Positions 44,701 through 60,601 of a stretch of DNA of 64,000 nucleotides are shown here, in pieces. Every line of letters begins with the position of its first letter. Position 1 is the stretch's first letter. This stretch comes from Pedobacter sp. KBW06. Its GTDB lineage: Bacteria; Bacteroidota; Bacteroidia; Sphingobacteriales; Sphingobacteriaceae. The notes beneath the pieces were generated by a model. It made no database searches and was not told the origin of the DNA. It worked only from the letters and a program-made list of their open reading frames with translations. The translations under genes were made by a program, and so were the position numbers. The stretch spans positions 62,001 through 126,000 of the forward strand of contig NZ_QAJL01000007.1 of assembly GCF_003852525.1 (NCBI RefSeq). Direction: 5' to 3'.

Positions 44701-45717
44701 ATGAAAAAACACTACAGTTGTCTATTTTCCCTGATCGTCTTTGCCTCATCACTGAGCGCTTGCGGGACCAATAAAACAGACAAAAAGAATTACCGGATAA
44801 GCGCTGTTGACGCAATCGGCGATACGATCCGCTTAACAAAGCCTGCTCAAAGGGTGGTTGCACTCATTCCCGCAGCCCTCGACGCCATTTACATGCTTCA
44901 TGCAGATAGTGCAATTATCGGCGCGCCAAACCGCGTCTACACCGATCCCAATCTGTACCCTTATTTTTCAAAAGTTGATCCGAGAATTAAAGAAAAGAAG
45001 ATCGCCACTCCCGCTTTGGCAGAGGGAGGACCGAATATGGAAACGATCATTAAGCTAAATCCCGACCTGGTCATTGTACAATCCAACCATACCGACGCGA
45101 TCACAATGCTTAAAGAACTGGGAATTGCCGTATTCGGCATAACTTCTCAAAACTTCGAACAGCTCAACGAGGAAATACAAAACCTGGGGATCCTCCTGGG
45201 CAAAGAAGACAGGGCTAAAGAACTCCTGTCCTTCAGTCAAAGTCAGATCGCCGGACTGAAAGAGAGAAACAGAAACATAAGCCAGAAAAAAACCATTTAT
45301 TACTCCTGGTCCGGGGGCCGTATTTATTCCACTACGGGCAGAAAAGGGATGATGAACGACTGTTTCGAAATGGCAGGTCTGGAGAATGCCTGTCCACATG
45401 ACATCGATGCACCTAACATCAGTCCTGAAACCCTGATCAGCTGGAATCCCGACATTATGCTGCTTTGGAATACAGATGAAAGTGTCTTGTATCAGCAAAA
45501 AGAACTTTCTTCCCTGAAAGCCTTAAAAGAAAAAAAAGTTTTCAATCTTAGTCCGCCGTTCTTATACGACCCGCATACCCTAAAAATCCTACTGGCTTCC
45601 GTTGCGATCAACCAGTACAGCTACCCGGGAACTGCAAATGAAAAACTGAGCTTCCGGCAAATGGAAATCCTGTCTGGTCTGTATGGTCCGGAAAAAGCTA
45701 AACTAATCCTGAGATGA
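44701..45717 (+). CDS. ABC transporter substrate-binding lipoprotein (siderophore/cobalamin/metal-chelate type)
   Basis: The 338-aa protein has a lipobox (ASSLSACGTN, Cys near residue 21) and the class III periplasmic-binding fold: TKPAQRVVALIPAALDAIYM, LNPDLVIVQSNH, TYYSWSGGRIYS-like strand and ISWNPDIMLLWN. This is the BtuF/FhuD/FepB type, which binds metal chelates. In diderms without a covalently anchored partner it sits in the periplasm. The permease start overlaps its stop. The nearby urease and hyp genes make a nickel chelate the most likely cargo, but iron-siderophore or cobalamin remains possible. Confidence 0.88.
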   Translation: MKKHYSCLFSLIVFASSLSACGTNKTDKKNYRISAVDAIGDTIRLTKPAQRVVALIPAALDAIYMLHADSAIIGAPNRVYTDPNLYPYFSKVDPRIKEKKIATPALAEGGPNMETIIKLNPDLVIVQSNHTDAITMLKELGIAVFGITSQNFEQLNEEIQNLGILLGKEDRAKELLSFSQSQIAGLKERNRNISQKKTIYYSWSGGRIYSTTGRKGMMNDCFEMAGLENACPHDIDAPNISPETLISWNPDIMLLWNTDESVLYQQKELSSLKALKEKKVFNLSPPFLYDPHTLKILLASVAINQYSYPGTANEKLSFRQMEILSGLYGPEKAKLILR

Positions 45718-46709
45718 TGCGCCGGATCCTTAGCAATGCCATTATTTATGGCCTGCCCCTTCCTGTCATTTTTATTTCCCTGCTGATCGGCTCTTCAGAC
45801 AACATTGGCTTTTCCGCCTTTTGGGACTGGATCAGCGCGACGCTTGATGGCAGTAATTCTGCGCCTTTGGTGGTAGAAAATGTGATTTTCAACATCAGGA
45901 TTCCAAGGGCATTGATGACTTTCCTCGTAGGTGCGGCACTGGCTACCTCAGGAGGTGTACTGCAGGCAATTTTCAGAAACCCATTGGTAGATCCATATAT
46001 CCTGGGAATCTCCTCCGGAGCAGCTTTCGGGGCTTCACTTGCCATATTAATTCCATTACTGTCGGTTCACATTTCCGCCTTTATTTTCGGGGCAGCAGCA
46101 GTCAGCCTGACCTATGTTTTCGGCTATACCAAAAATTCATCTTCCATCACGATTATCCTGGCAGGGATGATCGTATCCGGCTTATTTACAGCCAGCCTTG
46201 CCCTGGTACAATACCTGAGTGACCCTTTCAAACTGCAGGCCATTGTCCAGTGGACAATGGGAAGTCTGCACCTGAGTTCCTGGCATAAGGTACAGCAAAG
46301 CGTCATCCCGATCTCTGCCGGACTCCTGGGATTATACCTGATCCGCTGGAAGCTCAACCTGCTCTCCCTTGGTGATGAAGAAGCCAGGGCGGTGGGTGTC
46401 AACCCGGTTTACATCAAGGTCATTGCGGTAATTCTGGCCACAATGGTCACGGCAGTAGCAGTAGCCTCAGCGGGGATCATCAGTTTATACGGCCTTTTTG
46501 TACCGCACATTACCCGCATGCTCGTTGGTGCAAGCAATACCAAAACCACGCCGGCCAACATCTTTTTTGGGGGAACATTCCTGCTGATCATCGACAATTT
46601 CTGCAGAACGATATTCCCCTATGAAATTCCAATCGGAATCTTTACGATGATCATTGGTGCGCCCTTTTTTATATTCCTCATCAAGAAACGAAAAATCAAC
46701 TGGACATGA
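45714..46709 (+). CDS. FecCD/BtuC-type ABC permease
   Basis: The 331-aa protein has about ten hydrophobic helices and FecCD family motifs: RIPRALMTFLVGAALATSGG, NPLVDPYILGISSGAAFGAS and GLFVPHITRMLVG, with the EAA-like coupling loop near IRWKLNLLSLGDEEARAVGV. Its ATG overlaps the lipoprotein stop (45714 or 45717 are both possible). It forms the inner-membrane channel for the substrate handed over by the lipoprotein. The ATPase gene overlaps its stop (ATGA at 46706). Confidence 0.92.
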   Translation: MMRRILSNAIIYGLPLPVIFISLLIGSSDNIGFSAFWDWISATLDGSNSAPLVVENVIFNIRIPRALMTFLVGAALATSGGVLQAIFRNPLVDPYILGISSGAAFGASLAILIPLLSVHISAFIFGAAAVSLTYVFGYTKNSSSITIILAGMIVSGLFTASLALVQYLSDPFKLQAIVQWTMGSLHLSSWHKVQQSVIPISAGLLGLYLIRWKLNLLSLGDEEARAVGVNPVYIKVIAVILATMVTAVAVASAGIISLYGLFVPHITRMLVGASNTKTTPANIFFGGTFLLIIDNFCRTIFPYEIPIGIFTMIIGAPFFIFLIKKRKINWT

Positions 46710-47476
46710 GTATAGCTGCAATAAGCATAGAGAACCTAAGCTATTCCATACAAGGCAGACGCATCCTGGATCAGGTCTCACTTTCCCTTCCTGCAGATCA
46801 GTTTAGCGTTATACTGGGCAGAAACGGGAGTGGAAAATCCACCTTGTTTAACATGATTACCGGCAAATACCGCGACCCTTCGGGAGCCGTCTATCTGCTG
46901 GGAAAGGAACGAAATACCCTACCGGAAAAAGAACTGGCCAAAACAATCGGATTCCTTCCTCAGTTTCACCAGAGCATCTTTCCATTTTCCGTACATGATG
47001 TAGTCCTCACCGGAAGAGCAGCCTTTTACCGCTTTCTCCCCTCCCGGAACGATCATAAGATCGTCTCGGAAACACTGTCGAACATGGGGATCTCCCACCT
47101 TCAGGACAAGGCGTATACCGACCTTTCCGGAGGAGAGCGTCAATTGGTGCTCATTAGCCGCGTGATGGCCCAGGGACCGAAAATCCTGGTACTGGATGAA
47201 CCAACCAATCATTTAGACCTCCATTTCCAGGTATTGGTACTGGAAAAACTGAAACTTTATTCCAAAAGCGGCCATACCGTGGTCTGTATCATGCACGACC
47301 CCAATATGGCCAACATCTATGCCGACCACTGTTATTTCATGAAAGATCAGAAGGCCTGCGACAGCCATCTGATGAAAGCAGAACACCCCTCCATCAACCT
47401 TTACGAAGCACTTTATGACACCCCGCTCCTGCAGGTCCGGATAAAAGACAAAACGATTATTGTTCCAAAATTCTAA
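46706..47476 (+). CDS. ABC transporter ATP-binding protein (FepC/BtuD type)
   Basis: The 256-aa protein has Walker A LGRNGSGKSTLFNM (near residue 37), Q-loop FLPQFHQSIFPF, signature DLSGGERQLVLISR, Walker B ILVLDEPTNHLDLHFQ and H-loop VVCIMHDPNMA. It is the ATPase of the importer with the preceding two genes. Overlaps of a few bases through the operon indicate translational coupling. Confidence 0.94.
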   Translation: MSIAAISIENLSYSIQGRRILDQVSLSLPADQFSVILGRNGSGKSTLFNMITGKYRDPSGAVYLLGKERNTLPEKELAKTIGFLPQFHQSIFPFSVHDVVLTGRAAFYRFLPSRNDHKIVSETLSNMGISHLQDKAYTDLSGGERQLVLISRVMAQGPKILVLDEPTNHLDLHFQVLVLEKLKLYSKSGHTVVCIMHDPNMANIYADHCYFMKDQKACDSHLMKAEHPSINLYEALYDTPLLQVRIKDKTIIVPKF

Positions 47477-47477
47477 T

Positions 47478-47981
47478 ATGGCTTATCCAATCACGATCCC
47501 AACCGGGGCACTCATCAAAAGGGCAATAGACTTTTCTTACCAGTCGAGAAAAATACTGTTCCCCATGCTTTGTCATGATCAGCTGCCCGAAGACCTGCAA
47601 TTATTCGAATCTACTTACAGCAACGGAAATGCCGGAGCATTTCTGATTGCCAAAGACCACAAAGGAAAAATTGTTGGTTGTATTGCTGCAAGACCTTATA
47701 ATCATAGATTTAAGCAGTTCAGGCTAGCGTCAGAGGCGCCGGCTTACGAAATTTGCCGGCTCTACGTCCTCCCCGCTTACCGCCATCAGAAGATCGGGGG
47801 CATGCTGTTCTCCGGAATCAGCCTGCTGCTCCAGAGCAAGGGGATAGAACAATTGTATTTACATACCCACCCCTTCCTTGATGGCGCACAATTATTCTGG
47901 GAAAAAATGGGATTTAAACTGATCCACAGGGATCAGGATCCCCCCTTCTATACCATTCACATGCAACATAACATATCCTAA
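47478..47981 (+). CDS. GNAT-family N-acetyltransferase
   Basis: I take ATG 47478 (MAYPITIPTG, 167 aa), 1 bp after the ATPase stop; a TTG at 47460 is in the ATPase gene. The acetyl-CoA motif is YEICRLYVLPAYRHQKIGGMLFSG (motif A, R/Q-x-x-G-x-G/A like), followed by the motif B helix and FWEKMGFKLIHRDQ. Inside a metal-chelate uptake operon it may modify the chelator or a metabolite released from it, but no substrate can be read. It is followed by the receptor gene after 1 bp. Confidence 0.82.
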   Translation: MAYPITIPTGALIKRAIDFSYQSRKILFPMLCHDQLPEDLQLFESTYSNGNAGAFLIAKDHKGKIVGCIAARPYNHRFKQFRLASEAPAYEICRLYVLPAYRHQKIGGMLFSGISLLLQSKGIEQLYLHTHPFLDGAQLFWEKMGFKLIHRDQDPPFYTIHMQHNIS

Positions 47982-47982
47982 A

Positions 47983-50430
47983 ATGAGATCCATTTATTTA
48001 ATTTCCATAGGTTGCTTTTTTACTGTAACCCTCTCAAATCAGGCATTTGCCCAACAAACAGGAAGCATCAAAGGGCAGGTTCAGGATGAAAAAGGCCGCC
48101 CTGCATCAGACATCAATATTCGCATCCCTGCACTCCAAACCAAACAAAAAAGCAATGAAAAAGGAGGCTTTGTATTTAACAACCTGCCTTATGGCGAACA
48201 TCAGCTGATCTTTAGCGGAATTGGCCTTCAGTCTGATACCATCCTGGTCTCCATAAATGAAATGCAAAAAGAGGTACAGCTGCTTGTTCCTTTAATCAAT
48301 AACCAGGAACATTTGCAGGAAGTCGTGGTTATGGGCAGAACAAAGAAATCTTATGTAAATTCCAAAAGTTTCATTGGCTCAAAAACAGAATCCAGGATTA
48401 CGGAAATTCCCCAAACCATATCTGTAGTCACCAAAGAACTAATGGCCGACAAGCAGGCTTTTCTCATTACCGATGTCGTATCCGATCTTGCCGGAGTAAG
48501 CCAGTTTTCTGCTTACGATGACCTCAGCATCAGGGGCTTTAGGAATGGTTTCGAATCAGGCTTTCGCCTGGTCAATGGCCTCCGCTCCGGATATGGCTAT
48601 GGAACCAGCTTTTTCAGGATTCCCTTAACCTTAAATCTGGAAAGCATCGAAGTGCTGAAAGGGCCTGGTGCTGCCTTATTTGGAGACATCAGTCCTGGAG
48701 GAACCGTCAATCTAAACACCAAAAAGCCGCTTGAAGAAAGAAGAAATTCTGTCTCCTTAAGCGCCGGTTCCTTTAACACCATCCGCTCGGCAATTGACCT
48801 GACCGGTCCCCTGGATGCAGAGAAAAAAATACTTTACAGGCTCAATATGGGCCATGAAACCACCAATACCTTCAGAGAGGTCAACAACCGCAAATCGTAT
48901 ATGATCGCGCCGACCTTTACCTTCAGACCGAGCCCGAACACGACGATCAACGCGGAAATCAATTACAGCAATTTTGATGGATACCTGGATAGAGGAATGG
49001 GCATTAGAAGCGGCGACCTCTTTGCATTGAACCGCGCTTTCAGCCTGAGTCAGCCCAGCGACTATTTTAAGGTCAGCGACATTTCCTTTAACGCTTCCAT
49101 GAACCACCTCATCAGCGATAAGCTTTCTATAAATGCAAACTACCTGAAGTTTATCTACGCAGAAAACCTGGCCGAACACCGCACCCTGAATTCCTATGCA
49201 GACGCACCTTTAAATACGGTCATGAACATGCGTTATATAGAAAAACAAACCAAAGAATATACGGACAACATCTCTGCCTACCTGCATTACAAAGGCGGCA
49301 AACAGGATTTAAAGTACGATATCGTGGGGGGTCTGGACTATATCCAGTATGAAACAGACAAACGGGGCCATCAATGGGAGGCGAGAAACCAAACCATTAA
49401 CGGAAAAATTATCCCCTTACAATTTGACCTGAACAACCCGGGCTATGAATTGAGAAATACAGCCTTATACAACCGGCTTCCATTAGCGCAGTTTTTTGTA
49501 GATTACCTGAACTCCTCTTATCAGACCACAGGGATCTTTATTCAAAACAAAATCCGCTGGAAAGAAAGGTTGAATATCCTCCTGGGGCTCCGCTACGAAA
49601 ATTATGGCGACAAACGAAGGTTTGAAGGCAGTAACTTCGAAAAGGTGAAACAGTCGGTCTTATTGCCAAGGATTGGCCTGACCTATGCCATCAACCCCCA
49701 ATTCCATTACTTTGCCAGTTACAGTCAGGGTTTCATTCCAATCAATCCACAGTTCGTCCGCAATCCACAGAACTATGGCCGTACAGAGGCTTTCAAGAGT
49801 CAGACGAGCTATCAGCTGGAAACCGGAATTAAGACAGAACTGTTCAACAAAGCCATCTTCTCTTCGGTTTCGCTTTATCACATTGAACGCAAAAACATGC
49901 TGGTCAACAGCGGACAGCTCAATGAAGCCGGCAATCCGATCTACAGACAAAATGGGAGGGTAAAATCTCAGGGAGTAGAATTTGACATCAAAGGGAACCT
50001 CTTTCCTTCCCTGGAACTGAGCGCCAACTACGCCTTCAACATCACCGAGGTGATGGAGAGCGACCTTAAACTGGAAAAAGGAATGACCAATGCCAATGCA
50101 CCCAAACACCTGGCCTCAGTATGGACTAAATATACCCTCCGCGAGGGTAAACTAAAAGGATTGGGAATCGGTCTGGGTACACAACACACCGGTAAAAAGA
50201 GAATGGAAAACACGGTTCAAAACATTGCATCCGGCGAACTGGAATGGAACTTCTGGCCTTCGTATTTTATTGCAAATGCAGCAGTCTATTATAAACTGGA
50301 TAAAATGAGTATTTCTCTCAATGCCAACAACCTGTTCGATAAATACTACTTTGTAGGTGGCTACGATTATACCAGGGCATTTCCGGGAAGCCCGAGAAAC
50401 TTTATGACCGCAATCAGGTACACCTTCTAA
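47983..50430 (+). CDS. TonB-dependent receptor (siderophore/metal-chelate type)
   Basis: The 815-aa protein has a signal peptide (ISIGCFFTVTLSNQAFAQ), an N-terminal CarboxypepD_reg-like domain (GSIKGQVQDEKGRPASDINI), the plug (ITEIPQTISVVTKELMADKQ, DDLSIRGFRNGFESGF, IEVLKGPGAALFGDISPGG) and a 22-strand-type barrel ending RNFMTAIRYTF with a C-terminal Phe. The plug sequences are those of FhuA/FoxA/FpvA-type ferrisiderophore receptors, not SusC. It is the last gene of the five-gene uptake operon. The cargo is unknown; see the nickel inference. Confidence 0.92.
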   Translation: MRSIYLISIGCFFTVTLSNQAFAQQTGSIKGQVQDEKGRPASDINIRIPALQTKQKSNEKGGFVFNNLPYGEHQLIFSGIGLQSDTILVSINEMQKEVQLLVPLINNQEHLQEVVVMGRTKKSYVNSKSFIGSKTESRITEIPQTISVVTKELMADKQAFLITDVVSDLAGVSQFSAYDDLSIRGFRNGFESGFRLVNGLRSGYGYGTSFFRIPLTLNLESIEVLKGPGAALFGDISPGGTVNLNTKKPLEERRNSVSLSAGSFNTIRSAIDLTGPLDAEKKILYRLNMGHETTNTFREVNNRKSYMIAPTFTFRPSPNTTINAEINYSNFDGYLDRGMGIRSGDLFALNRAFSLSQPSDYFKVSDISFNASMNHLISDKLSINANYLKFIYAENLAEHRTLNSYADAPLNTVMNMRYIEKQTKEYTDNISAYLHYKGGKQDLKYDIVGGLDYIQYETDKRGHQWEARNQTINGKIIPLQFDLNNPGYELRNTALYNRLPLAQFFVDYLNSSYQTTGIFIQNKIRWKERLNILLGLRYENYGDKRRFEGSNFEKVKQSVLLPRIGLTYAINPQFHYFASYSQGFIPINPQFVRNPQNYGRTEAFKSQTSYQLETGIKTELFNKAIFSSVSLYHIERKNMLVNSGQLNEAGNPIYRQNGRVKSQGVEFDIKGNLFPSLELSANYAFNITEVMESDLKLEKGMTNANAPKHLASVWTKYTLREGKLKGLGIGLGTQHTGKKRMENTVQNIASGELEWNFWPSYFIANAAVYYKLDKMSISLNANNLFDKYYFVGGYDYTRAFPGSPRNFMTAIRYTF

Positions 50431-50491: not shown

Positions 50492-50968
50492 CTATCTTTT
50501 TTGTCCGACGATATTGCCATAACAATTGATCATCTGTGAAGGATCCAGTCTATAATTGGCCAATGTGACCGGCGAACCATACTTTTGCTGCAGTGCCGGG
50601 AACAGCTGTCCATCATAAGCAAAGGCAATCTTATTTTCATCAATCAGATAAATAGGCAAATGCCTGTTGCCCACATCAAAACAGAACAAACCCACCAATT
50701 CCAGATCATTGGAATGCAGCACAATGCAGGTACAGGGTTTGATGAAGATCCTGATCACACAGACCTCATCCAGATAGATCACCGTACCCTGCTGCAACAC
50801 GGCAGACAAAGGTTTGTCGAGATGGATCATCCTGCCCGACAAAGTTTCCCTTTTGATTAAAGTACGGTTCACTTCATACCATTCCAGTACCAGACTATCC
50901 TCTTCCTGATGCTGCAATGGAGTGAGCACAGGCAATGAGTCAATTTTGATGACCTGATTATTGAGCAC
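50492..50968 (-). CDS. ureE2: UreE-family urease nickel metallochaperone, second copy
   Basis: The C-terminal half has the UreE nickel-domain signature FDVGNRHLPIYL, close to the FEIGNKHTPIFI of the copy next to ureC. The whole protein aligns in pattern with that copy (the N-terminus VLNNQVIKIDS against MIKTDRVIANLY). I use the GTG at 50968, which gives 158 aa and an 11-base overlap with hypB; an ATG at 51031 would add 21 basic residues read inside hypB. No His-rich tail is present. Having it behind hypB suggests a delivery step tied to HypA/HypB. It is the last gene of the eleven-gene urease operon. Confidence 0.75.
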   Translation of the reverse strand: MLNNQVIKIDSLPVLTPLQHQEEDSLVLEWYEVNRTLIKRETLSGRMIHLDKPLSAVLQQGTVIYLDEVCVIRIFIKPCTCIVLHSNDLELVGLFCFDVGNRHLPIYLIDENKIAFAYDGQLFPALQQKYGSPVTLANYRLDPSQMINCYGNIVGQKR

Positions 50969-51665
50969 TTTTTTCACGCTTTTCTTTAACTTTAGCACGC
51001 AGCCAGTCACACCATTCTTCCATCCCATCATCTTTCAGGCTGCTGATGGCAATGACTTCCAGATTGGGATTCACTTCTCTTGCATCCTTAGTTACCGCTT
51101 CCACGGAAAAAGGAACATAAGGCAGCAGATCAGATTTAGAAACGAGCATCAATTCGCTCGTCAGGAACATTCTTGGGTATTTTTTAGGTTTATCATCCCC
51201 CTCTGTAGCCGCAAGAAGCGTCACACGGTAATCTTCTCCCAGGTCAAAGGCCGCAGGGCAAACCAGGTTCCCAACATTCTCGATAAAAAGGAGGTCACAT
51301 GAACTCAGGTCAATATGGTCTAAAGCCTGCAGGATCATCTGCGCTTCAATATGGCACATCCCTCCTGTCACGATCTGCAAAGCATTGATTCCTACCTCAC
51401 GCATACGGATCGCATCCCTTTCGGTCTCCGGATCACCTACCAGCACTGCAATCCCAAGCTCTGCACCCAGGCGCTTACCGGTTTCCTGCATCAGGGTGGT
51501 TTTCCCGGAACCAGGTGAAGAACAAACATTGATCACACAGATCCCCGGAATGCGGTCTCTGATGGCTTTAGCTACAAAATCATTGGCTTTCAATAAATTC
51601 AGGGTTGTATTGTCACATTGTACCGACCCTACCGGCATCTGATTACTTTTCGGTGTTGCTGTCAT
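50958..51665 (-). CDS. hypB: HypB-type nickel GTPase
   Basis: The 235-aa protein has the SIMIBI GTPase core: Walker A CSSPGSGKTTL (near residue 49), DPETERDA (switch), GGMCHIEAQM (the Cys-His metal pair of the G domain, near residues 102-103), LLFIENVGNLVCP (Walker B) and SKSDLLPYV (NKxD-like). The N-terminal CxxCGC site of E. coli HypB is missing, so the high-affinity site is absent. HypB with HypA inserts nickel; in Helicobacter pylori the pair also activates urease. There is no hydrogenase gene in the window. Confidence 0.95.
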   Translation of the reverse strand: MTATPKSNQMPVGSVQCDNTTLNLLKANDFVAKAIRDRIPGICVINVCSSPGSGKTTLMQETGKRLGAELGIAVLVGDPETERDAIRMREVGINALQIVTGGMCHIEAQMILQALDHIDLSSCDLLFIENVGNLVCPAAFDLGEDYRVTLLAATEGDDKPKKYPRMFLTSELMLVSKSDLLPYVPFSVEAVTKDAREVNPNLEVIAISSLKDDGMEEWCDWLRAKVKEKREKSAQ

Positions 51666-52021
51666 TATTGTATGTTGTTTAAATCGTTAAAAATTACCTG
51701 ACTAATGCGAAGTTCTTCGCCCTGCATGACCTGCCCTGAGGGTTGGCCGCAAACGCAAACAAACCTGTGAAACCTGACTTCAAAGTCAGATTCACAGGTT
51801 GTGCAATGGGCAATAATCGGAAGCAGCTCCACTTCCAGCTCTGTTTCCCTGAACTGGACCTCGTCCAGAATAAATGCTTCAAAAGCATTCTGAATCAGGA
51901 TGGGTTGTATGTTGGCCAGCAATCCGGCCTGGATTCTTATTTTACTGATCTGCTTATAGGTATCCGGATAAGCTTGTTCCAGCGTTTTAAAAATGTCCTT
52001 AACTATAGCTATTTCATGCAT
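51665..52021 (-). CDS. hypA: HypA-type nickel metallochaperone
   Basis: The 118-aa protein starts MHEIAIVKDIF; the N-terminal Met-His-Glu is the nickel site of HypA (His2, Glu3). The zinc domain has HCTTCESDFEV (CxxC) and then FVCVCGQPSG, i.e. CxC in place of the usual second CxxC. The fold and length fit the family. It overlaps ureD by 13 bases and hypB by 1 base, so it is translated with the urease assembly genes. Confidence 0.95.
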   Translation of the reverse strand: MHEIAIVKDIFKTLEQAYPDTYKQISKIRIQAGLLANIQPILIQNAFEAFILDEVQFRETELEVELLPIIAHCTTCESDFEVRFHRFVCVCGQPSGQVMQGEELRISQVIFNDLNNIQ

Positions 52022-52821
52022 AAATCTGATGGTTTAGTAATAGACTCCAGAAAATCTGTACACATGCTGGCAATCGTTTTTATAAAATTGTACAGCAGGT
52101 CCCCATTGTCGCCGAGTGCACGGAACAGGATCATGTCTTCAGCGCAGGTGGTAAATCCAAAGCTGATGTCTTCATAGTCGCCCCTGAAGATTTCATCCAG
52201 CTCCTTTTTAAATGCAGCAGCGTGTTCGGAGGCAAAAATCAAAGTGGCCTGATGGGTGTATCCTTCATGGAAAAGCATTTTATCAATGGGCTGATCCTTA
52301 GGTTTCAAAACCTGATTGTCGATATAGACCAGTTTTTTCTCCCTGTAAATCTTCGTGGTACTGTGCAGTTTTTCATACTCAAATACCTCATCACGAAATA
52401 CCCGTCCTGCGCAAATGACATCTCCCCAAAGCAATGTGGCTCCTTTTTCAAGGTATACCTGATTAACCGTCGTAAATATCGAATCCTTAAATGGGGTAAT
52501 CGGATGTGGGATATACTGAAAAAGTGCATCCTCACCTACCTGAACAACCATCTGCTGACTCGCCCCGGTTTTCATCGGATGCAGTTTATTGTAAGATTGG
52601 GAGTACAGGTGCAAACAGCCCTGATCGGCAATCTCTACCTCAATCTTCAAGTGATCGTCGTCCATAATTCCTGGCGAGGAACTCATAATGATCAATTCGA
52701 TGTGCTGATTAGAGCGCTGCGTTCCATAATGTACGATTTTGTAAGGGGCATTGTAAAAGCTGTCTTTCAACAGGCTCTTGCCTTCCTCTGTCAATACGCT
52801 GATCTTAATTGCACTGTCCAT
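52009..52821 (-). CDS. ureD: Urease accessory protein UreD
   Basis: The 270-aa protein has the UreD pattern: HLYSQSYNKLHPMKTGASQQM (the conserved 'SxSxxKxxxM' basic strand), LFQYIPHPITPFKDSIFTT and GATLLWGDVICAGR. UreD bridges the apo-urease and the UreF-UreG complex and carries nickel through a tunnel. It lies between ureG and hypA, after ureG by 11 bp. Confidence 0.92.
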   Translation of the reverse strand: MDSAIKISVLTEEGKSLLKDSFYNAPYKIVHYGTQRSNQHIELIIMSSSPGIMDDDHLKIEVEIADQGCLHLYSQSYNKLHPMKTGASQQMVVQVGEDALFQYIPHPITPFKDSIFTTVNQVYLEKGATLLWGDVICAGRVFRDEVFEYEKLHSTTKIYREKKLVYIDNQVLKPKDQPIDKMLFHEGYTHQATLIFASEHAAAFKKELDEIFRGDYEDISFGFTTCAEDMILFRALGDNGDLLYNFIKTIASMCTDFLESITKPSDLCMK

Positions 52822-52832
52822 ATTTTTCTCTC

Positions 52833-53447
52833 CTATCCTTCCAGCAAAGCGTATTTCTTAATCCAGTCCTGCACCTGATCCAAACCTTCCAGTGTCATCA
52901 TATTGGTCAGGATAAAAGGACGTTCTCCACGCATGCGCCTGGCATCGCTCTGCATAATGGAAAGGTCGGCCCCAACATATGGCGCAAGATCAATTTTATT
53001 GATCAGCAACAGGTCCGACCTGGTAATGCCCGGCCCACCTTTTCTTGGAATCTTCTCTCCCTCCGCCACATCGATCACAAAAATGGTCACATCTGCCAGA
53101 TCCGGACTAAAGGTAGCCGTCAGGTTATCTCCGCCACTTTCTACAAAAATGAGCTCCACATCAGGAAATTGCGCTGCCAGATCTTCCACCGCTTCAATGT
53201 TCATGGAACAATCTTCCCTGATCGCAGTATGCGGACAACCGCCTGTCTCCACACCGGCAATCCGCTCTGCCGGCAATGAGGAATTCTTCTGAAGAAATTC
53301 AGCATCCTCACGTGTATAAATATCATTGGTGACCACACAGATGCTGTAGTCTCCACACATTGTTCTTGTCAACCTTTCAATAAGGGCAGTCTTTCCGGAT
53401 CCTACCGGACCTGCCACCCCAATTTTCACATATTTTCTCTTCGCCAT
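52833..53447 (-). CDS. ureG: Urease accessory GTPase UreG
   Basis: The 204-aa protein has Walker [16 protein letters not shown] (P-loop at 13-20), [14 protein letters not shown] (the CPH nickel motif), [21 protein letters not shown] and [16 protein letters not shown] (NKxD). It carries Ni(II) in a GTP-dependent way to urease within the UreD-UreF complex. It follows ureF by 9 bp. Confidence 0.97.
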
Positions 53448-53456
53448 TTGATATCG

Positions 53457-54143
53457 TTATGAAATGTAAATCCTTGTGTATAATTTTTCATGCTGCATGC
53501 ACCTGATGTCCTGGGCAATGCAACAACTCCCGAGCATTTCCTCCGGCATCTGCTCCTGTGTTTCCTGCAAACGTTCGATCAAACCCTGAAGCTGGAACAA
53601 AATCTTCTGGGCATCCATCTGACTGATCGGTACGAGTTTCGCACAATTGGTCAGGATCCCGTTGAGGGTATTGTAGTAAAAAGCATGTAAAGCATCCTTC
53701 ATCGGGATCTTGGCCGCATGCGCATACATGGCAAAGGCCATGGCATAATGCCCGTTTACTTCACCATTTTTAATCGCCTGAAGGTATTTTGTACAGCGCG
53801 GCACGGACTTGAAATTTCCGGTCACCTTTAAAAAACGGATGCCGAGCTTTTTGCTGGCTTCCCTGATTTCATAAGGCGCTTTATAGGCGCTGATCAAATC
53901 GTCCAGCTCCCGCACCTTAGCCTTTGTGGCATTGCCCTCGCACATCTTCCAGGCCAATACAAAAAATGCAGCATCGTTGTAATAAAAATTGTGCTGCAGC
54001 ATGGTCTCAGCGTATATTTTGACGGTTTTACTGTCCTTTACAATCCCTTTGCTCACATACGTCTCCAACCCATAGGATTGCGTAAAGCTTCCGATCGGAA
54101 ATGCAGAATCATTAATCTGTAACAGTGTCAGTAATGCACTCAT
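53457..54143 (-). CDS. ureF: Urease accessory protein UreF
   Basis: The 228-aa all-helical protein begins LLTLLQINDSAFPIGSFTQSYGLE, given as LLQINDSAFPIGSFTQSYGL, the signature start of UreF. MLQHNFYYNDAAFF and the late helix with the conserved Tyr/Asn (HAFYYNTLNGILTNCAKLVP) also match. It forms the UreD-UreF scaffold and works as the GTPase checkpoint for UreG. It follows ureE1 by 1 bp. Confidence 0.93.
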   Translation of the reverse strand: MSALLTLLQINDSAFPIGSFTQSYGLETYVSKGIVKDSKTVKIYAETMLQHNFYYNDAAFFVLAWKMCEGNATKAKVRELDDLISAYKAPYEIREASKKLGIRFLKVTGNFKSVPRCTKYLQAIKNGEVNGHYAMAFAMYAHAAKIPMKDALHAFYYNTLNGILTNCAKLVPISQMDAQKILFQLQGLIERLQETQEQMPEEMLGSCCIAQDIRCMQHEKLYTRIYIS

Positions 54144-54144
54144 C

Positions 54145-54636
54145 TTACTTGCTTTCTAAAGAAATCACCTGCCCTGATGAACTCCATTTGTAGATCATCA
54201 GGGTGGAGGTTCTCTCAATTATTCTATTTTCTTTGCGCGGTTCAAATCCTCCCCTTTTCAGAAACTGATAGAGGGGGGATTCAAATGCGATGATGACTTC
54301 TTTGTCCTTATTGATAAATATCGGGGTGTGCTTATTGCCAATTTCAAAACAGACAATCGCCATATCCCTCAGCGTCAGCGGCTGAAATACGATGCAAAGA
54401 CAGGGTATGATCTGAACCACGATGATATCCCTGTCCTCATGGTACACAATGTCACCATGATAAAGCTGCTCCTGATCCAGATGATGAATGGCGATTTCCC
54501 GCCCGTTATCCGTGAAAAGGCGCACTATTTTTTTCGTCGCATCATACCAGTCCAGCTGCAGAATGTCTATTTTGCAACTGGAATAACGCTGGCTGTCGGT
54601 ATATAGGTTCGCAATAACCCGATCTGTTTTGATCAT
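54145..54636 (-). CDS. ureE: UreE-family urease nickel metallochaperone, first copy
   Basis: I use ATG 54636 (MIKTDRVIANLY, 163 aa), 1 bp after the ureC stop; the longer frame from 54696 would overlap ureC by 59 bases. The C-terminal domain has CFEIGNKHTPIFINKDKEVI, the UreE nickel-domain signature, and the N-terminal domain has the usual IHHLDQEQLYHGDIVYHE. The His-rich tail of Klebsiella UreE is missing. It gives nickel to UreG. A second copy follows hypB at the end of the operon. Confidence 0.85.
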   Translation of the reverse strand: MIKTDRVIANLYTDSQRYSSCKIDILQLDWYDATKKIVRLFTDNGREIAIHHLDQEQLYHGDIVYHEDRDIIVVQIIPCLCIVFQPLTLRDMAIVCFEIGNKHTPIFINKDKEVIIAFESPLYQFLKRGGFEPRKENRIIERTSTLMIYKWSSSGQVISLESK

Positions 54637-54637
54637 G

Positions 54638-56488
54638 TTAAAAAAGGAAATAACGTTGTGCCATAGGCAATACTGCCAGCGGTTCGCAGGTGGCAATCAC
54701 GCCATCCACCCTTACATCATAAGTTTCCGGATCTACGGTAATGTCGGGGGTCGCATCGTTATGCACCATATCCTTCTTCATCACTGTTCTGCATCCCTTT
54801 ACCGGAAGACTGGTCCGTTCCAGTCCCAATTTTGCGATGCTTCCGTTTTCCAATGAAACTTTGGAAACGAAGTTATAGCAGATATTGGCCAGCGCCTTTC
54901 CGTAATTTCCAAACATCATCCTGTAAACGATAGGCTGAGGTGTAGGAATCGAGGCATTGATATCGCCCATCTTCGCACCCAGGATCATTCCTCCCTTGAT
55001 GATCAGCTCGGGTTTTACCCCAAACATTTCCGCTTTCCAAAGAATCAGATCGGCAAATTTGCCCGGCTCAATCGAACCTACATAGGTGTCAATTCCATGT
55101 GCTTTGGCCGGATTGATGGTGTATTTAGAGATGTATCTTTTTACCCTGAAGTTGTCATTACCTGATCCCTGATCTTCTTTCAAAGCTCCTCTTTGGACCT
55201 TCATTTTATGGGCAGTCTGGAAAGTTCTGGAGATTACTTCACCTACCCTTCCCATGGCCTGACTATCAGAACTCATGATACTGAAGACGCCCATATCCTG
55301 AAGAATATCTTCCGCAGCAATGGTCTGAGGACGAATTCTGGAATCCGCAAAGGCCACATCCTCTTTTACATTCTTATCCAAATGATGACAAACCATCAGC
55401 ATGTCCAGATGCTCTTCGGCAGTATTGATCGTATAAGGTTTTGTTGGATTTGTCGAGGCTGGTAAGATATTAGGATACATTGCAATTTTCATAATATCCG
55501 GAGCATGTCCCCCACCGGCACCTTCCGTATGGAAAGTATGGATCACACGGCCATCAATTGCGCGAACAGTATCTTCCAGGAATCCCGCCTCATTCAAAGT
55601 ATCAGAGTGGATCGCCACCTGTACATCATATTTATCAGCCACTCTCAGGGCCATATCTATTGTCACCGGCGTAGCACCCCAGTCTTCATGGATTTTAACA
55701 CCTAATGCGCCCGCTTCCACCATTTCTTCAATAGGCCTCATCGTCGAGACGTTACCTTTACCGAAGATGCCGACATTGATCGGCAAGGTCTCAAAAGCCT
55801 GCAGCATCTTTTCGATGTACCACTTTCCTGAAGTAACCGTCGTTGCATTGGTACCATCAGCTGGTCCCGTACCCCCGCCGATAAAGGTGGTTACTCCGCT
55901 ATACAAGGCAGTTTCTACCTGCTGTGGACTGATAAAATGGATATGCGTGTCAATTCCGCCTGCAGTAAGGATCATTCCGGCGCCACTGTGTACCTCTGTG
56001 GAGGCACCAATGATCATTCCTTCCGTCACCCCGTCCTGAACATCCGGATTTCCTGCCTTTCCTACCCCTACAATTTTTCCTCCTTTAATCCCGACATCGC
56101 CTTTAACGATACCCCAGTGATCGATCACGATGACATTGGTAATGCAAAAATCCAATACCCCTTCATCGCCCAATGCACGGGCAGATTGCCCCATCCCGTC
56201 ACGGATGGTTTTACCTCCGCCAAACTTGTTCTCTTCTCCATATACGGCGAAATCTTTTTCAATCTCGATAAACAATTCCGTATCCGCCAGGCGCACTTTA
56301 TCCCCTGTGGTAGGTCCAAACAGGGCTACATATTTCGCCCTCGGAATGTATAGCTCACCATCAATATATTTTACAGAACCGGCTTCCAGGCCCAGCTTAT
56401 CCAGTCCTAAAGACCTCAAACCAACTACGCTGCCCAGGGCAGTCAGGCCGACTACCTTAATCCATTCTCTTCTATTCCACTCTGCCAT
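54638..56488 (-). CDS. ureC: Urease alpha subunit (UreC) with twin-arginine-like N-terminal extension
   Basis: All active-site residues are present at a constant +48 offset from the Klebsiella enzyme: H182/H184 (THIHF), carbamylated K265 ([10 protein letters not shown]), H294 (AIHSD), H320 (TFHTEG), C367/H368 (MVCHHL) and D408 (SSDSQ). The catalytic chain therefore is intact, and the extra length (616 versus 567 aa) is N-terminal. This extension starts [20 protein letters not shown]: an Arg-Arg motif (residues 6-7), a hydrophobic stretch [13 protein letters not shown] and then [20 protein letters not shown], where the common fold begins. It looks like a Tat signal but has no clear AxA cleavage site. 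The ATG at 56488 is 6 bp after ureB, which supports it. Confidence 0.97.
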
Positions 56489-56494
56489 AATATC

Positions 56495-56872
56495 TTATTT
56501 TAATTTTACGGTTTTATACTTTTCTGCTTTCATCTTTGCGATGGCAGCGGTTTTCACTTTCTCGTTGGTGTATTTGCCATTGGTCAGGCCATTGAATCCA
56601 TGAATCTCCCTGTTGCCGCCAATCTCCACAAGGATGATGTCTTTACTTTCGCCGGGCTCAAAACGGATTGCTGTACTTGCCGGAATATTGAGCCTCATGC
56701 CAAATGCCTTTTCCCGGTCAAACTGCAGGTATCGGTTCACTTCAAAAAAATGATAGTGAGAACCAATCTGTATGGGCCTGTCGCCGGTATTGCTCACAGA
56801 TAAGGATGCCGTACGGTAACCCTCATTTGCTTTGATGTCTTCTTTTTTTATAATGTATTCTCCTGGTATCAT
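56495..56872 (-). CDS. ureB: Urease beta subunit
   Basis: The 125-aa protein matches UreB: start [13 protein letters not shown], the [20 protein letters not shown] strand (conserved GSHYHF), and [20 protein letters not shown]. The C-terminal 20 residues are basic and more variable. It is a separate gene (not fused to ureA). It is the structural partner of UreC and lies between ureA and ureC with 18- and 6-bp gaps. Confidence 0.96.
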
Positions 56873-56890: not shown

Positions 56891-57193
56891 TTAGCGAATG
56901 GGATTATGAATGGTGACCAGTTTCGTCCCATCCGGAAAGGTGACTTCAATCTGTACATCATGGATCATTTCAGGAACCCCTTCCATGACCTGCTTTCGGC
57001 TCAGCAATTTGGTTCCATAGTCCATCAGCACGGCTACGGTCTTCCCATCCCTTGCTTTCTCCATGATTTCGGCACTGATATAGGCGATGCTCTCCGGGTA
57101 GTTTAGCTTTACGCCTCTTTTGAGTCGTTTGGCGGCAAGCTCGCCTGCGAGATGCAGCATCAGTTTTTCAGTTTCTCTGGGTGTTAAACGCAT
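56891..57193 (-). CDS. ureA: Urease gamma subunit
   Basis: The 100-aa protein is full length: [36 protein letters not shown]-like segment [20 protein letters not shown], and [20 protein letters not shown]. Identity with UreA of many bacteria is obvious by eye. It follows the porin gene by 44 bp and opens the urease core. Confidence 0.97.
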
Positions 57194-57237: not shown

Positions 57238-58434
57238 TTAAAAGGCAGCCAGATTAAAATAGGTACCGAGGATAAAACGGTTATTCTTTTCTGATGGCAG
57301 GCCCATCCTGTTTTTGTAAGTAATCGCATTGCTGATATATCCCGCAAAAAGCTTCCAGTCTTTATTTGCAAATGGCTGATGCTCCAATGCCGCATAACCG
57401 GTCCAGTTTCTTCTGAAATCCTGTCCTGCCTGCTTGTACTTCCTGGCGCTCGCGGTTTCATAGGCCCCTTTCAGGGAAATGCCCCAGTTCTTGTTCAGCT
57501 GCTGGTCAAACCTCAGCACTGCGGTTTTATAAACCACATCTCTGAGCATGGTCCTGTCTGTACCTTTAATTCCGTAAAAAGAGTGAATGGAATTAGAAGC
57601 CAGCATGGTATGGTCCACACCATAATCGGAATACTGAAGGTCCAGGTACACCTTAGTGCCACCAGATTGGTGCATATTTGCAAGAGAGACCGCATGGTTG
57701 TCGCCATCAACAACAAGCTGCGAATAGTTATAAGACCATTTCGTATGGATGGTCTTGTTCAGAAAATTACCTTCCCAGGTCAGGTAAGTCCCAATTGGGC
57801 GACCGGACTGTTTCAGTCCGGCAGCGCCATATGCGGCATTCTTAACCAGCTGATCAAAAGTCTCGGTAGCGGTATTGTAAATCTGGAAAGTAAAACGATG
57901 TGCTGGATTTACCTTGTAGGAGAAGGTGGCCCCTACCACAAATAGGTTCAGGATGCGGTCTACATAATCCGTAAAAATATATTCATATACCGGATTGTTC
58001 ACAAACTCATAACTCCCCACTGCGGCGGCCTGCTTTCCCAGAATCACTTCCCATTCTTTCTGCTTCCCAAAGCGGTAATTCACCTGAGCAAAGTCAAGTG
58101 CTCTTGAGCCATTGTCCTGAGAAGTGGTATTGAAAGACCTGTTCAGGCGGAAGCGCACTTTATAAGAAAGGTCTGAATGGATAAAACCATGAAGCAAAAG
58201 CCTCATTTCGTCCAGCTTAAAACCGGCATTGACCTCATTTTCCGTGTTGCTACCGATGTTAAATGAGGTACGCCCAAGCACATTCAGCTTAAAGGCAGAA
58301 GAATCGTTATTTTTAGGCTGGAGGATCTGACCATCAGCAGGGGCTGAAACCGGGCTAACTGCCGAAGTCTGAGCCGATGCCAGTCCCGGGCAAACGGCAC
58401 ACAATATGATCCCTATTCCTGTTCTAATTTTCAT
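57238..58434 (-). CDS. Outer-membrane porin (phosphate-selective porin O/P-like) of the urease operon
   Basis: The 398-aa protein has a signal peptide ([17 protein letters not shown]) and then a beta-barrel sequence with alternating strands and frequent aromatic/charged tips, for example [39 protein letters not shown] and [20 protein letters not shown]. It ends [12 protein letters not shown], a typical terminal aromatic strand. The layout fits the OprP/OprO-like porin family. It is the promoter-proximal gene of the urease operon (44 bp to ureA). Porins in that place could admit urea or another small solute; this is an inference. Its promoter carries the 11-bp repeats. Confidence 0.78.
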
Positions 58435-58453: not shown

Positions 58454-58531
58454 CAAGTATAAACGAGCCACCTAATAATCGGCTAAACTGAAGATTAAAA
58501 CGATATTAGGGAAAAATAAGAGCGAGATTAG
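58454..58531 (-). promoter_or_regulatory. Porin-urease operon promoter with 11-bp phased repeats
   Basis: Minus-strand TATACTTG (58454-58461) fits the Bacteroidota -7 element, 20-27 bp upstream of the porin ATG. Upstream, read on the plus strand, four units lie at exact 11-bp steps: GATTAA (58493), TATTAG (58504), AATAAG (58515) and GATTAG (58526). The last overlaps the end of the histidine-kinase gene. OmpR/PhoB-family regulators bind such repeats; the adjacent response regulator is the natural candidate. Confidence 0.5.
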
Positions 58532-59910
58532 AGCCTGGCTATCGGACAGTAAATTGTAACCGTAGTACCCACACCCTCAATGGAATGGATGTCCAGACTC
58601 GCATGATGGAGTTCAAATATATTCCTGGCCAATACCAGCCCAAGGCCATTTCCATAGATGTTTCCAATGTTCGAAGCACGAAAAAATGACTCAAAGATGT
58701 GAGGTTTATCCCGATCCGGAATTCCTATTCCCCGGTCAATTACCCGGATCACGATTTTTGAATCGACCACGGCGATCCCTACTTTCACCTCCTGTTCATT
58801 CCCATATTTACAGGCATTCGAGATGATATTAGAAAGTCCGATAAAAAACAAATCCTGGTTCACGTTCACGGTCAGCAGATTGCTGTCCTCGGGAATATTG
58901 GAAAAATCCAGAAAGATCCGGTGGTTGTCATTCAGGTAGCCTTCGGATTCCTTGACGCTGTAAAGCAGTTCATCAATCCTGACCAGGCTCATGTTCTGGT
59001 CTTTTCCACCATAACCTGTTCTGGAGAGCAGAAGCAGACTGTTTACAATCATGTTCATGCGGTCCACTTCTTTAGATACCATTTCCACAGAATAATGTGC
59101 AGGGTGTTCGGGGTCCAGGCAATCCAGTGCCAGTTCGGATTCCCCGCTAATGATCGTCATAGGGGTCCGCAGGGAATGTGAAGCATTGCTGATGAAACTC
59201 CGCTGCGACTTGACCGAAATCTCCAGCCGGCTCAGCATGTCGTTGATATTGGAAATCAGCACTTCAATCTCATCCTTTTCTTTTGCCCCCTTTGCAGGCA
59301 GCCTCAGGTTAAGGTTACTGATATTGATCTGTCCGATCCTTTTATTGATCGATGCAATCGGGTTCAACAGCTTATCTGCAAAATAAAATGAAAGCAGAAT
59401 GATGAATAACAAAAAAATGGCGACCCCTGAGATCAAAGCCTCATTGAGGTCCCGGTGCTCTGCATTCCCGAAATCATCTATCGCAGCAGAAACCACCACG
59501 AGGTTTTTTTTATGGTCTTTGTCTTCAAAAAACAAAGCCACGTAAGCAGTACCATCCAGCATCAGCTCGGCCCTGCCATGTTCAATGGTTTCTTCAAAAA
59601 AATCGTTGCCCATGGGCAGGAGTGGCTCATAACGGGGTTGCTTTCTGTCTTTCTCTACCCTGACCAGGTAGTTCCGGCCAAACGAAAACTGGTTGATGAA
59701 CTTATTGCTCAGCTCATAATAGCTCTTGTCTTTATAGACTTTAGAATTCATCACATGCGTTCCCAGCATCCGCGCATTCTCTTCTAATCGTTTAAAAAAC
59801 TTATTTTCCAGCGTTTTAGAAGTAAAATAAGAAACGTATACAGCAAAAGACAACAGGATTAAACTGGCAATTGCCGAGGACAACAGAATGATTTTAGTTC
59901 TGATCTTCAT
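58528..59910 (-). CDS. Sensor histidine kinase
   Basis: The 460-aa kinase has an N-terminal TM helix (IILLSSAIASLILLSFAVYV), an extracytoplasmic sensor of about 130 residues, a second TM helix (ALISGVAIFLLFIILLSFYF), a HAMP segment, then the kinase core. The phosphoacceptor is in NASHSLRTPMTIISGE (H in SHSLRTP). The N box is SNIISNACKYGNEQEV, the G1 box VIDRGIGIPDRD and the G2 box GNGLGLVLARNI. The usual E after H in the H box is Ser here. The response regulator gene overlaps its start by 17 bases. It lies immediately upstream of the urease operon, in the same direction. Confidence 0.92.
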   Translation of the reverse strand: MKIRTKIILLSSAIASLILLSFAVYVSYFTSKTLENKFFKRLEENARMLGTHVMNSKVYKDKSYYELSNKFINQFSFGRNYLVRVEKDRKQPRYEPLLPMGNDFFEETIEHGRAELMLDGTAYVALFFEDKDHKKNLVVVSAAIDDFGNAEHRDLNEALISGVAIFLLFIILLSFYFADKLLNPIASINKRIGQINISNLNLRLPAKGAKEKDEIEVLISNINDMLSRLEISVKSQRSFISNASHSLRTPMTIISGESELALDCLDPEHPAHYSVEMVSKEVDRMNMIVNSLLLLSRTGYGGKDQNMSLVRIDELLYSVKESEGYLNDNHRIFLDFSNIPEDSNLLTVNVNQDLFFIGLSNIISNACKYGNEQEVKVGIAVVDSKIVIRVIDRGIGIPDRDKPHIFESFFRASNIGNIYGNGLGLVLARNIFELHHASLDIHSIEGVGTTVTIYCPIARL

Positions 59911-60601
59911 AGCTTTCCTGTACCCTCATCACGTAACCCATACCAATTACCGTATGAATCAGCTTAGGACTGAAGTTCTTGTCTATTTTTTTTCTTAAAT
60001 AATTGAGGTATACATCGACCACATTCGTGCTGAGGTTGAAATCCATTCCCCATACCTCTTCCAGGATGTCCACACGGGTGATGATCCTGTTCATGTGCTG
60101 CATCAGATGTTCGAGCAGCCGGTATTCAGTAGCCGTCAGTACAATGACTTTTCCGGCACGGCTCACCACCTTGCTGTCTTTATCCAGCACAAGGTCTGAG
60201 ATCGTTAAGATATTTGCAGGTGTGGTACGGACCGTTCCCGATTTGCGGGACTTGCGGTAAACGCGGGCCCTCAGTTCGTCTATTTTAAAAGGTTTGGTCA
60301 GGTATTCATCCGCATCGTGGTTAAACGCAGCGACGATATCTTCCGTTTGATTTAAGGCAGAAAGAATGATAATGGGCACATCCGGGTCGGTTAACCTGAT
60401 GTTCCGGCAGACCTCCAGACCATCCATACCGGGAAGCATCACATCCAGAATAATCAAATCAAACTGATTCATTCCCGCCATCTTTAGCCCGGTAAGCCCG
60501 TCCATAGCGACGCTGATGTCCAGCTCTGTATGCTCATCTTTCAAACCTCTTTGTATCAAAGAAACAACCGCAATTTCATCTTCTATTAAAAGTACCTTCA
60601 T
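59894..60601 (-). CDS. OmpR-family response regulator
   Basis: The 235-aa protein has a receiver (IEDEIAVVSLIQRGLKDEHT, phosphoacceptor in LIILDVMLPGMDGLEV, Thr/Lys in EYLTKPFKIDELRA) and a winged-helix DNA-binding domain (VLTATEYRLLEHLMQHMNRI, VDVYLNYLRKKIDKNF, IHTVIGMGYVMR). It is the cognate regulator of the overlapping kinase. Members bind direct repeats about 11 bp apart, and such repeats stand before the porin-urease, metal-uptake and Usp operons. That link is inferred. Confidence 0.94.
   Translation of the reverse strand: MKVLLIEDEIAVVSLIQRGLKDEHTELDISVAMDGLTGLKMAGMNQFDLIILDVMLPGMDGLEVCRNIRLTDPDVPIIILSALNQTEDIVAAFNHDADEYLTKPFKIDELRARVYRKSRKSGTVRTTPANILTISDLVLDKDSKVVSRAGKVIVLTATEYRLLEHLMQHMNRIITRVDILEEVWGMDFNLSTNVVDVYLNYLRKKIDKNFSPKLIHTVIGMGYVMRVQESYEDQN

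Follow-up and report, generated by a model that had tools for sequence, protein, structure and literature searches.

A urease alpha subunit with a conserved Tat-like leader in Pedobacter: comparative evidence for a probably exported urease in Bacteroidota

The window analysed here, a stretch of 64,000 nucleotides from Pedobacter sp. KBW06 (host genome of 8.1 Mb), carries a urease cluster on the minus strand in the order porin, ureA, ureB, ureC, ureE, ureF, ureG, ureD, hypA, hypB and a second UreE-like gene. At the head lies the gene for an outer-membrane porin (57238–58434), which matches Porin_O_P (PF07396) with 69.7 bits at a cut-off of 20.9 and has homologs in related loci. After a gap of 44 bases it is followed by ureA, encoding the gamma subunit (56891–57193), and 18 bases further by ureB, encoding the beta subunit (56495–56872). 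UreA and UreB match their families from residues 1 and 3, respectively, and are thus without leader. The alpha subunit gene ureC (54638–56488) is followed by ureE (54145–54636; ATG start within a longer TTG open reading frame, Pfam and NCBIfam models), ureF (53457–54143; Pfam), ureG (52833–53447; CobW/HypB/UreG GTPase family, assigned as UreG by place and by eye) and ureD/ureH (52009–52821; Pfam). The cluster ends with the nickel chaperone gene hypA (51665–52021; Pfam HypA, 77 bits, cut-off 28.9), the nickel GTPase gene hypB (50958–51665; TIGR00073, 241 bits, cut-off 121.2) and the gene for the second UreE-like protein (50492–51031), of which the UreE matches stay under the curated cut-offs.

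HypA, HypB and the divergent second UreE-like protein (50492–52021, minus strand) are perhaps a nickel relay for the urease. No match to a NiFe hydrogenase was found in the host genome, so HypA and HypB presumably serve the urease; PMC5557546 describes HypA as serving urease in Helicobacter pylori. The second UreE occupies a place of its own in loci of Pedobacter, Sphingobacterium, Dyadobacter and Rufibacter and was not seen in those of Chitinophaga and Bergeyella, and several Sphingobacterium urease clusters are without HypA/HypB. On the plus strand beside the cluster (44701–50430) lie a Peripla_BP_2/FecCD/ATPase ABC importer, a GNAT acetyltransferase and a TonB-dependent receptor. Homologs of the binding protein, the acetyltransferase and the receptor, together with HypA/HypB, adjoin an ordinary, leaderless urease in nine loci (L124–L132). 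Together, these observations suggest a putative uptake system for nickel or a nickel chelate. A histidine kinase/response regulator pair (58528–60601, minus strand) immediately upstream of the porin is a likely regulator of the urease cluster; it is conserved in the majority of the long loci from Pedobacter and Sphingobacterium and in one Rufibacter locus (L058).

The ureC gene starts with an ATG at 56488, six bases past the ureB stop, and encodes 616 amino acids. The protein passes TIGR01792 (933.9 bits against a cut-off of 680) and its catalytic site is intact. It shares 95% identity with the UreC of Pedobacter gandavensis (L091). All ten positions checked, which comprise nickel ligands, the carbamylated Lys and the flap Cys (H182, H184, K265, H267, H294, H320, C367, H368, R384 and D408), match at the Klebsiella number plus 48, and the shift of 48 claimed in the sequence-only reading is confirmed. 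The matches to Pfam Urease_alpha and TIGR01792 both begin at UreC residue 48, and the alignment to solved bacterial urease alpha chains sets in at UreC residue 48 or 49, against residue 3 or 4 of the solved chain; none of the solved chains aligned has a leader like that of the window UreC. Residues 1–47 are therefore extra. They are encoded by 56348–56488 on the minus strand. The extension had earlier been placed at 56300–56488, a range that does hold the whole leader and in addition the first 16 residues of the UreC domain.

The leader contains a twin arginine (R6–R7, 56468–56473) in the motif WNRREWIK (residues 4–11), followed by a hydrophobic h-region of 13 uncharged residues (12–24, 56417–56455) and by S-L-G (residues 26–28, 56405–56413), a weak candidate for a signal peptidase I site based on the −3,−1 rule and column conservation. 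The Tat consensus is S/T/N-R-R-x-aromatic-hydrophobic-K, or S/T-R-R-x-F-L-K in another form, and the N-R-R-E-W-I-K of the window fits it with W replacing F and I replacing L. In the six leaders measured, the 12-residue mean Kyte-Doolittle hydropathy of the h-region was 1.3–2.0. A strict Tat-like pattern, defined as RRx[FWY][LIVM]K plus at least 10 uncharged residues within the first 45 amino acids, occurred in 34 out of 1551 distinct open reading frames of at least 100 amino acids from the window and the collected loci. Of these, 33 were leader-bearing UreC and the 34th was another protein with a Tat-like start. Within the window, one frame out of 57 has the pattern, the UreC.

Conservation of the twin arginine was assessed in relatives. 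It was present in all 65 loci whose match starts at query residue 1–4 (a count that leaves out two full or split matches, in G223 and G262), and each of these reads W[NS]RR[EDK][WF]IK. Together with the window they represent 48 distinct proteins, selected by W[NS]RR, so that W and RR are fixed by choice; I10, K11 and G14 are invariant as well and the h-region columns vary. The codon of the second Arg is AGA in 27 of these proteins, CGC in 19 and CGG in two, which indicates that the amino acid is kept and not the DNA. Three more leaders from other genomes (L141, L142 and L161) likewise carry RR. A definition blind to the arginines, an in-frame ATG at least 40 amino acids upstream of the first conserved UreC motif, was met by 76 of 187 UreC frames, 71 of which hold the twin-arginine motif. 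The other five (L082, L090, L105, L113 and L181) have unrelated upstream sequence; in four of them an ATG also stands where an ordinary UreC would begin, and L090 is open into ureB. No relative with the leader and without RR was found; the sequence-only reading had named such relatives as grounds for its refutation, and it survives this check. In L090, from Aneurinibacillus terranovensis, the ureB frame seems open into ureC (3845–5911), as if beta and alpha were fused. Locus L107, with no start by the rule used, was excluded from the UreC set of 138.

A maximum-likelihood tree was made of the UreC body without leader, with 23 of the 48 distinct leader-bearing proteins and 71 ordinary ones, by a quick search without bootstrap. 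A branch with SH-aLRT 100 separated all 23 leader-bearing rows from the ordinary ones. The families represented among the 23 are Sphingobacteriaceae, Spirosomataceae, Hymenobacteraceae, Chitinophagaceae and Weeksellaceae, and the leader-bearing genera are Pedobacter, Sphingobacterium, Dyadobacter, Rufibacter, Chitinophaga and Bergeyella. Among the genomes sampled, the leader is frequent in the Sphingobacteriaceae only, the family of the window, in which 32 of the 42 genomes with UreC (301 genomes sampled) have a leader-bearing copy. In the family of Bergeyella zoohelcum this was 4 out of 296 genomes, 92 of them with UreC, and in that of Chitinophaga eiseniae 2 out of 394, 45 with UreC. An even sample of the phylum (395 genomes) gave 13 genomes with UreC at E 1e-100, among which the leader was present in the host genome alone, and the idea of a leader common across the Bacteroidota was rejected. 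This patchy distribution suggests transfer between families. Two loci that aligned from residue 6–7 (L115 and L116) have stops there and ordinary starts. The genome of Rufibacter glacialis encodes two leader-bearing ureases (L058 and L061), 75% and 70% identical to the window UreC.

The leaders of Chitinophaga and Bergeyella, judged by their sequences, are close to textbook Tat signals, with polar n-regions of 9–26 residues. The leader of B. zoohelcum (L065) reads WSRRDFIKVVGVATAGVSLMGISPILAQN, with similar ones in L064, L068, L141 and L142; that of C. eiseniae is L057, with L059 and L161 similar and ending in AFAQ. Chitinophaga leaders end in AYA↓Q or AFA↓Q, the Bergeyella type in LLA↓Q, ILA↓Q or LFA↓Q. 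The Bergeyella leaders L065 and L068 pass the Tat model TIGR01409 (22.0 and 21.8 bits, cut-off 16.7); Pfam TAT_signal gave 19.2 bits on L065, under its cut-off of 22.7. The leaders of L057, L058 and L059, as well as L022 and L046 for which only NCBIfam was searched, stay below every Tat model cut-off, and the window leader matched no Pfam or NCBIfam model at E 10, Tat models included. AxA is absent from the Pedobacter and Sphingobacterium leaders examined; in Pedobacter and in most of the Sphingobacterium leaders [A/S]LG stands in its place. L022, from the same family, has ALA↓L there. Since [A/S]LG, including the S-L-G of the window, conforms to the −3,−1 rule, it could be a candidate cleavage site.

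The porin gene at the cluster head, noticed earlier, recurs with the leader across families. A Porin_O_P homolog was found in 32 of the 35 leader-bearing loci of at least 9.5 kb, which are relatives, so that the counts are not phylogenetically independent. With porin queries taken from leader-bearing loci, none of the 56 ordinary long loci had a homolog; 21 of these are from other phyla by label, and without the other phyla the count was 0/35, within the own family 0/16. The gene lies upstream of ureA in Sphingobacteriaceae, is divergent in Dyadobacter and comes after hypB in Chitinophaga and Bergeyella. The leader-bearing long loci without a recognisable homolog are the two of Rufibacter, from one genome, and L064, which is at a contig end. 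An upstream open reading frame in Rufibacter was considered as porin and rejected, having no Pfam match. The ordinary cluster L124 holds other predicted outer-membrane proteins (an OMP_b-brl match below cut-off and a DUF2490 protein), and therefore a porin alone is no proof of export.

A urease in the cytoplasm depends on intracellular urea, and the neighbourhood of urea transporters was used as an independent test. The 42 UreC genomes of the family were searched for UT (PF03253) and UrtA (TIGR03407), the latter counted only over its cut-off; weak UrtA-like matches in G052 and G090, far under it, were left uncounted. UT or UrtA lay within 10 kb of ureC for none of the 32 leader-bearing copies versus 21 of the 25 ordinary ones (Fisher p 6e-12, a nominal value, as the genomes are related and the counts not phylogenetically independent; among the 32, at least the neighbourhoods in G262 and G292 are cut by contig ends). 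In the genomes with both kinds of UreC the transporter is by the ordinary copy in 15 out of 15. Among the 17 genomes with the leader-bearing kind only, 14 have neither transporter and three (G209, G238 and G281) have a UT elsewhere; the remaining ten UreC genomes of the family have the ordinary kind only. UT was found in 20 of the 42 genomes, which serves as a positive control for its absence in the host genome. Outside the family, where UT alone was searched, two of the seven leader-carrying genomes have one (G686 and G688), and in C. eiseniae (G686) its distance to an ordinary ureC is 3.5 kb, with the leader-bearing copy on another contig. The absence of transporters beside the leader-bearing genes fits export.

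Four ordinary copies are without transporter. Two of these, in one genus (G121 and G180; L134 and L135), lie directly after xanthine dehydrogenase-like genes (Pfam-checked in L134), and here urea may arise inside the cell from purine breakdown. Some genomes of the family (L136–L139) have a more distant urease with 57–59% UreC identity and a UreA frame of 210–251 amino acids, the length of a gamma-beta fusion; L138 and L139 adjoin Urt-type ABC transporter genes.

The partner subunits, leaderless in the window, would have to ride along with UreC. In the 36 long loci 35 UreA and 35 UreB could be read, with RR in the first 35 amino acids of none of the UreA and eight of the UreB, where it lies within the ordinary domain. 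None of the five UreA and five UreB viewed has a leader of RR plus h-region, and the Bergeyella UreB has a short polar extension. The top 12-residue hydrophobicity of UreA (first 45 amino acids) reaches 1.3, near the 1.34 of the weakest leader (L035), and this UreA stretch is ordinary domain. One alpha-beta-gamma unit measures 66.5 + 14.2 + 11.3 kDa, about 92 kDa. As the urease trimer of about 275 kDa is large for Tat, export as a single alpha-beta-gamma unit has to be assumed. TatC is present in the host genome (216.7 bits) and in all 42 UreC genomes of the family, including the ten with the ordinary kind only, so its presence does not discriminate. TatC was not found in one of the seven leader-carrying genomes outside the family, a Bergeyella MAG of 1.5 Mb.

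A structure model of UreC based on an alignment of 80 sequences had a mean pLDDT of 83.2 and a pTM of 0.88, with a mostly confident core (a first model from 23 close sequences was poor, with a mean pLDDT of 43, and was set aside). It matches the Klebsiella and Sporosarcina ureases (8hcn and 5a6t) with a TM-score of about 0.95 by target length. Residues 1–31 have a pLDDT below 50, with a lone helix at 6–17 that is not docked, and residues 40–47 form a short hairpin leading into the core. In the model, such an unpacked leader has the look expected of an export signal or anchor, though a low pLDDT alone is no proof.

What the sequences show directly is a conserved leader confined to one clade, the gene context, and UreA and UreB without leaders. 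From these we infer, with a probability of roughly 0.84, that UreC is a Tat-exported urease subunit with UreA and UreB hitchhiking, with nickel inserted in the cytoplasm and activity on the periplasmic side. The Tat-like signal proposed from the single sequence thus gains support by comparison. UreA, UreB and UreC would fold as one complex in the cytoplasm and be loaded there with nickel by UreD/E/F/G and HypA/HypB. These accessory proteins act in the cytoplasm, for which reason insertion of nickel must presumably precede export. The twin-arginine signal of UreC would take the folded alpha-beta-gamma complex, of the size given above, across the membrane by way of the Tat translocase, UreA and UreB hitchhiking without signals of their own, and the urease would be active on the periplasmic side, freed by cleavage or held by its leader. 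Urea would arrive through the outer-membrane porin of the cluster head, making a transporter in the inner membrane unneeded, and the ammonia might then enter the cell or raise the local pH. It is also probable, at a somewhat lower grade, that this constitutes a distinct and patchily spread class of periplasmic urease in the Bacteroidota, a nickel-loaded UreABC exported by Tat via the UreC signal and accompanied by an outer-membrane urea porin, which in some cells would coexist with a cytoplasmic urease having its own inner-membrane urea channel, giving urea hydrolysis in two compartments.

Other explanations have to be weighed against export. The leader could be an annotation artefact, with translation from a downstream start yielding an ordinary cytoplasmic urease. 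The sole in-frame alternative start ahead of the UreC domain is a TTG at residue 24 (L002), which allows for this. However, the window ureC has no in-frame ATG or GTG after its first codon and ahead of the domain, so that the extension must be translated; an ATG precedes WxRR in each of 66 leader-bearing rows and residues 4–14 are conserved, which leaves an artefact hardly credible. That the leader is a cytoplasmic segment for docking or assembly, serving UreD/UreF/UreG or the enzyme, with RR as a coincidence, would agree with the fair conservation of residues 38–48 or thereabouts, which the model shows as a hairpin attached to the core, and with the failure of the Tat profiles on the window leader. 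It is improbable nonetheless: residues 1–31 are modelled without confidence and undocked, the h-region drifts with RR and K fixed, relatives have leader ends of the xxA↓Q form, the transporter and porin context speaks against it, and ordinary UreC of the same family do without the segment. Slightly less credible again is a relic, a former export signal now dead in the Pedobacter/Sphingobacterium branch. The missing AxA and the curated Tat profiles that miss the leader would suit it, but all Pedobacter and Sphingobacterium loci read have RR, with synonymous codon change, and the absence of transporters and the linkage to the porin hold in this very branch.

Within the export reading, a variant has the leader translocated by Tat and left uncleaved in Pedobacter and Sphingobacterium, which would tether the urease to the inner membrane on its periplasmic side. 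We regard this variant as possible, at somewhat less than even odds. It agrees with the window leader being without AxA and with a conserved [A/S]LGL[D/E]KLGL behind the h-region in Sphingobacteriaceae, as if retained. Against it stand [A/S]LG itself, allowed by the −3,−1 rule, with ALA↓L at the same place in L022, and the clear sites in the Chitinophaga/Bergeyella-type homologs. The sequence-only reading had taken the missing AxA as a sign of an uncleaved anchor; given an S-L-G allowed by the −3,−1 rule and relatives with AYA↓Q, AFA↓Q, LLA↓Q and ALA↓L, the missing AxA does not show such an anchor.

Urease, the classic nickel enzyme, is generally placed in the cytoplasm, and the uptake of urea is regarded as a limiting step. 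If the export reading is true, folded urease leaving the cytoplasm would shift the site at which ammonia and alkalinity arise, a nickel hydrolase would join the large hitchhiker cargoes of Tat, and a leader-bearing and an ordinary urease in one cell would be a natural two-compartment pair. This would bear on animal-associated species such as Bergeyella, on the turnover of urea in soil and on mineral precipitation with surface-exposed urease. In the open-licence PMC literature, of which the coverage is limited and the silence weak evidence, no paper was found to describe a periplasmic urease or one exported by Tat, and the urease passages of PMC7305310, PMC6497324 and PMC7253602 contain no Tat-exported urease.

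In subunits, catalytic and nickel-ligand residues and accessory genes the window cluster is like the UreABC ureases of Klebsiella and Sporosarcina, which are without leader; the leader is on the window side only, with the alignment running from residue 48. Three-subunit bacterial ureases of this kind are regarded as cytoplasmic. The ordinary ureases of Sphingobacteriaceae (e.g. L124, L126 and L133) are closer still, with a UreC 71–73% identical to that of the window and the same UreABCDEFG set, yet they have no leader, a UT in the cluster and no homolog of the window-type porins within 19.9 kb. The H. pylori system is comparable in its use of HypA for urease and in ammonia regarded as a buffer of the periplasm; urea enters the cytoplasm there by the UreI channel, whereas the window cluster has the leader and an outer-membrane porin in place of such a channel. 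The Tat-exported [NiFe] hydrogenase, in which a small subunit with an RR signal carries the signal-less large subunit after nickel insertion in the cytoplasm with HypA/HypB, would work alike as a folded complex with a hitchhiker; it is an unrelated enzyme, however, and in the window the signal is on the nickel subunit itself. On the comparative evidence, the window encodes what is very probably an otherwise ordinary urease distinguished by its location.
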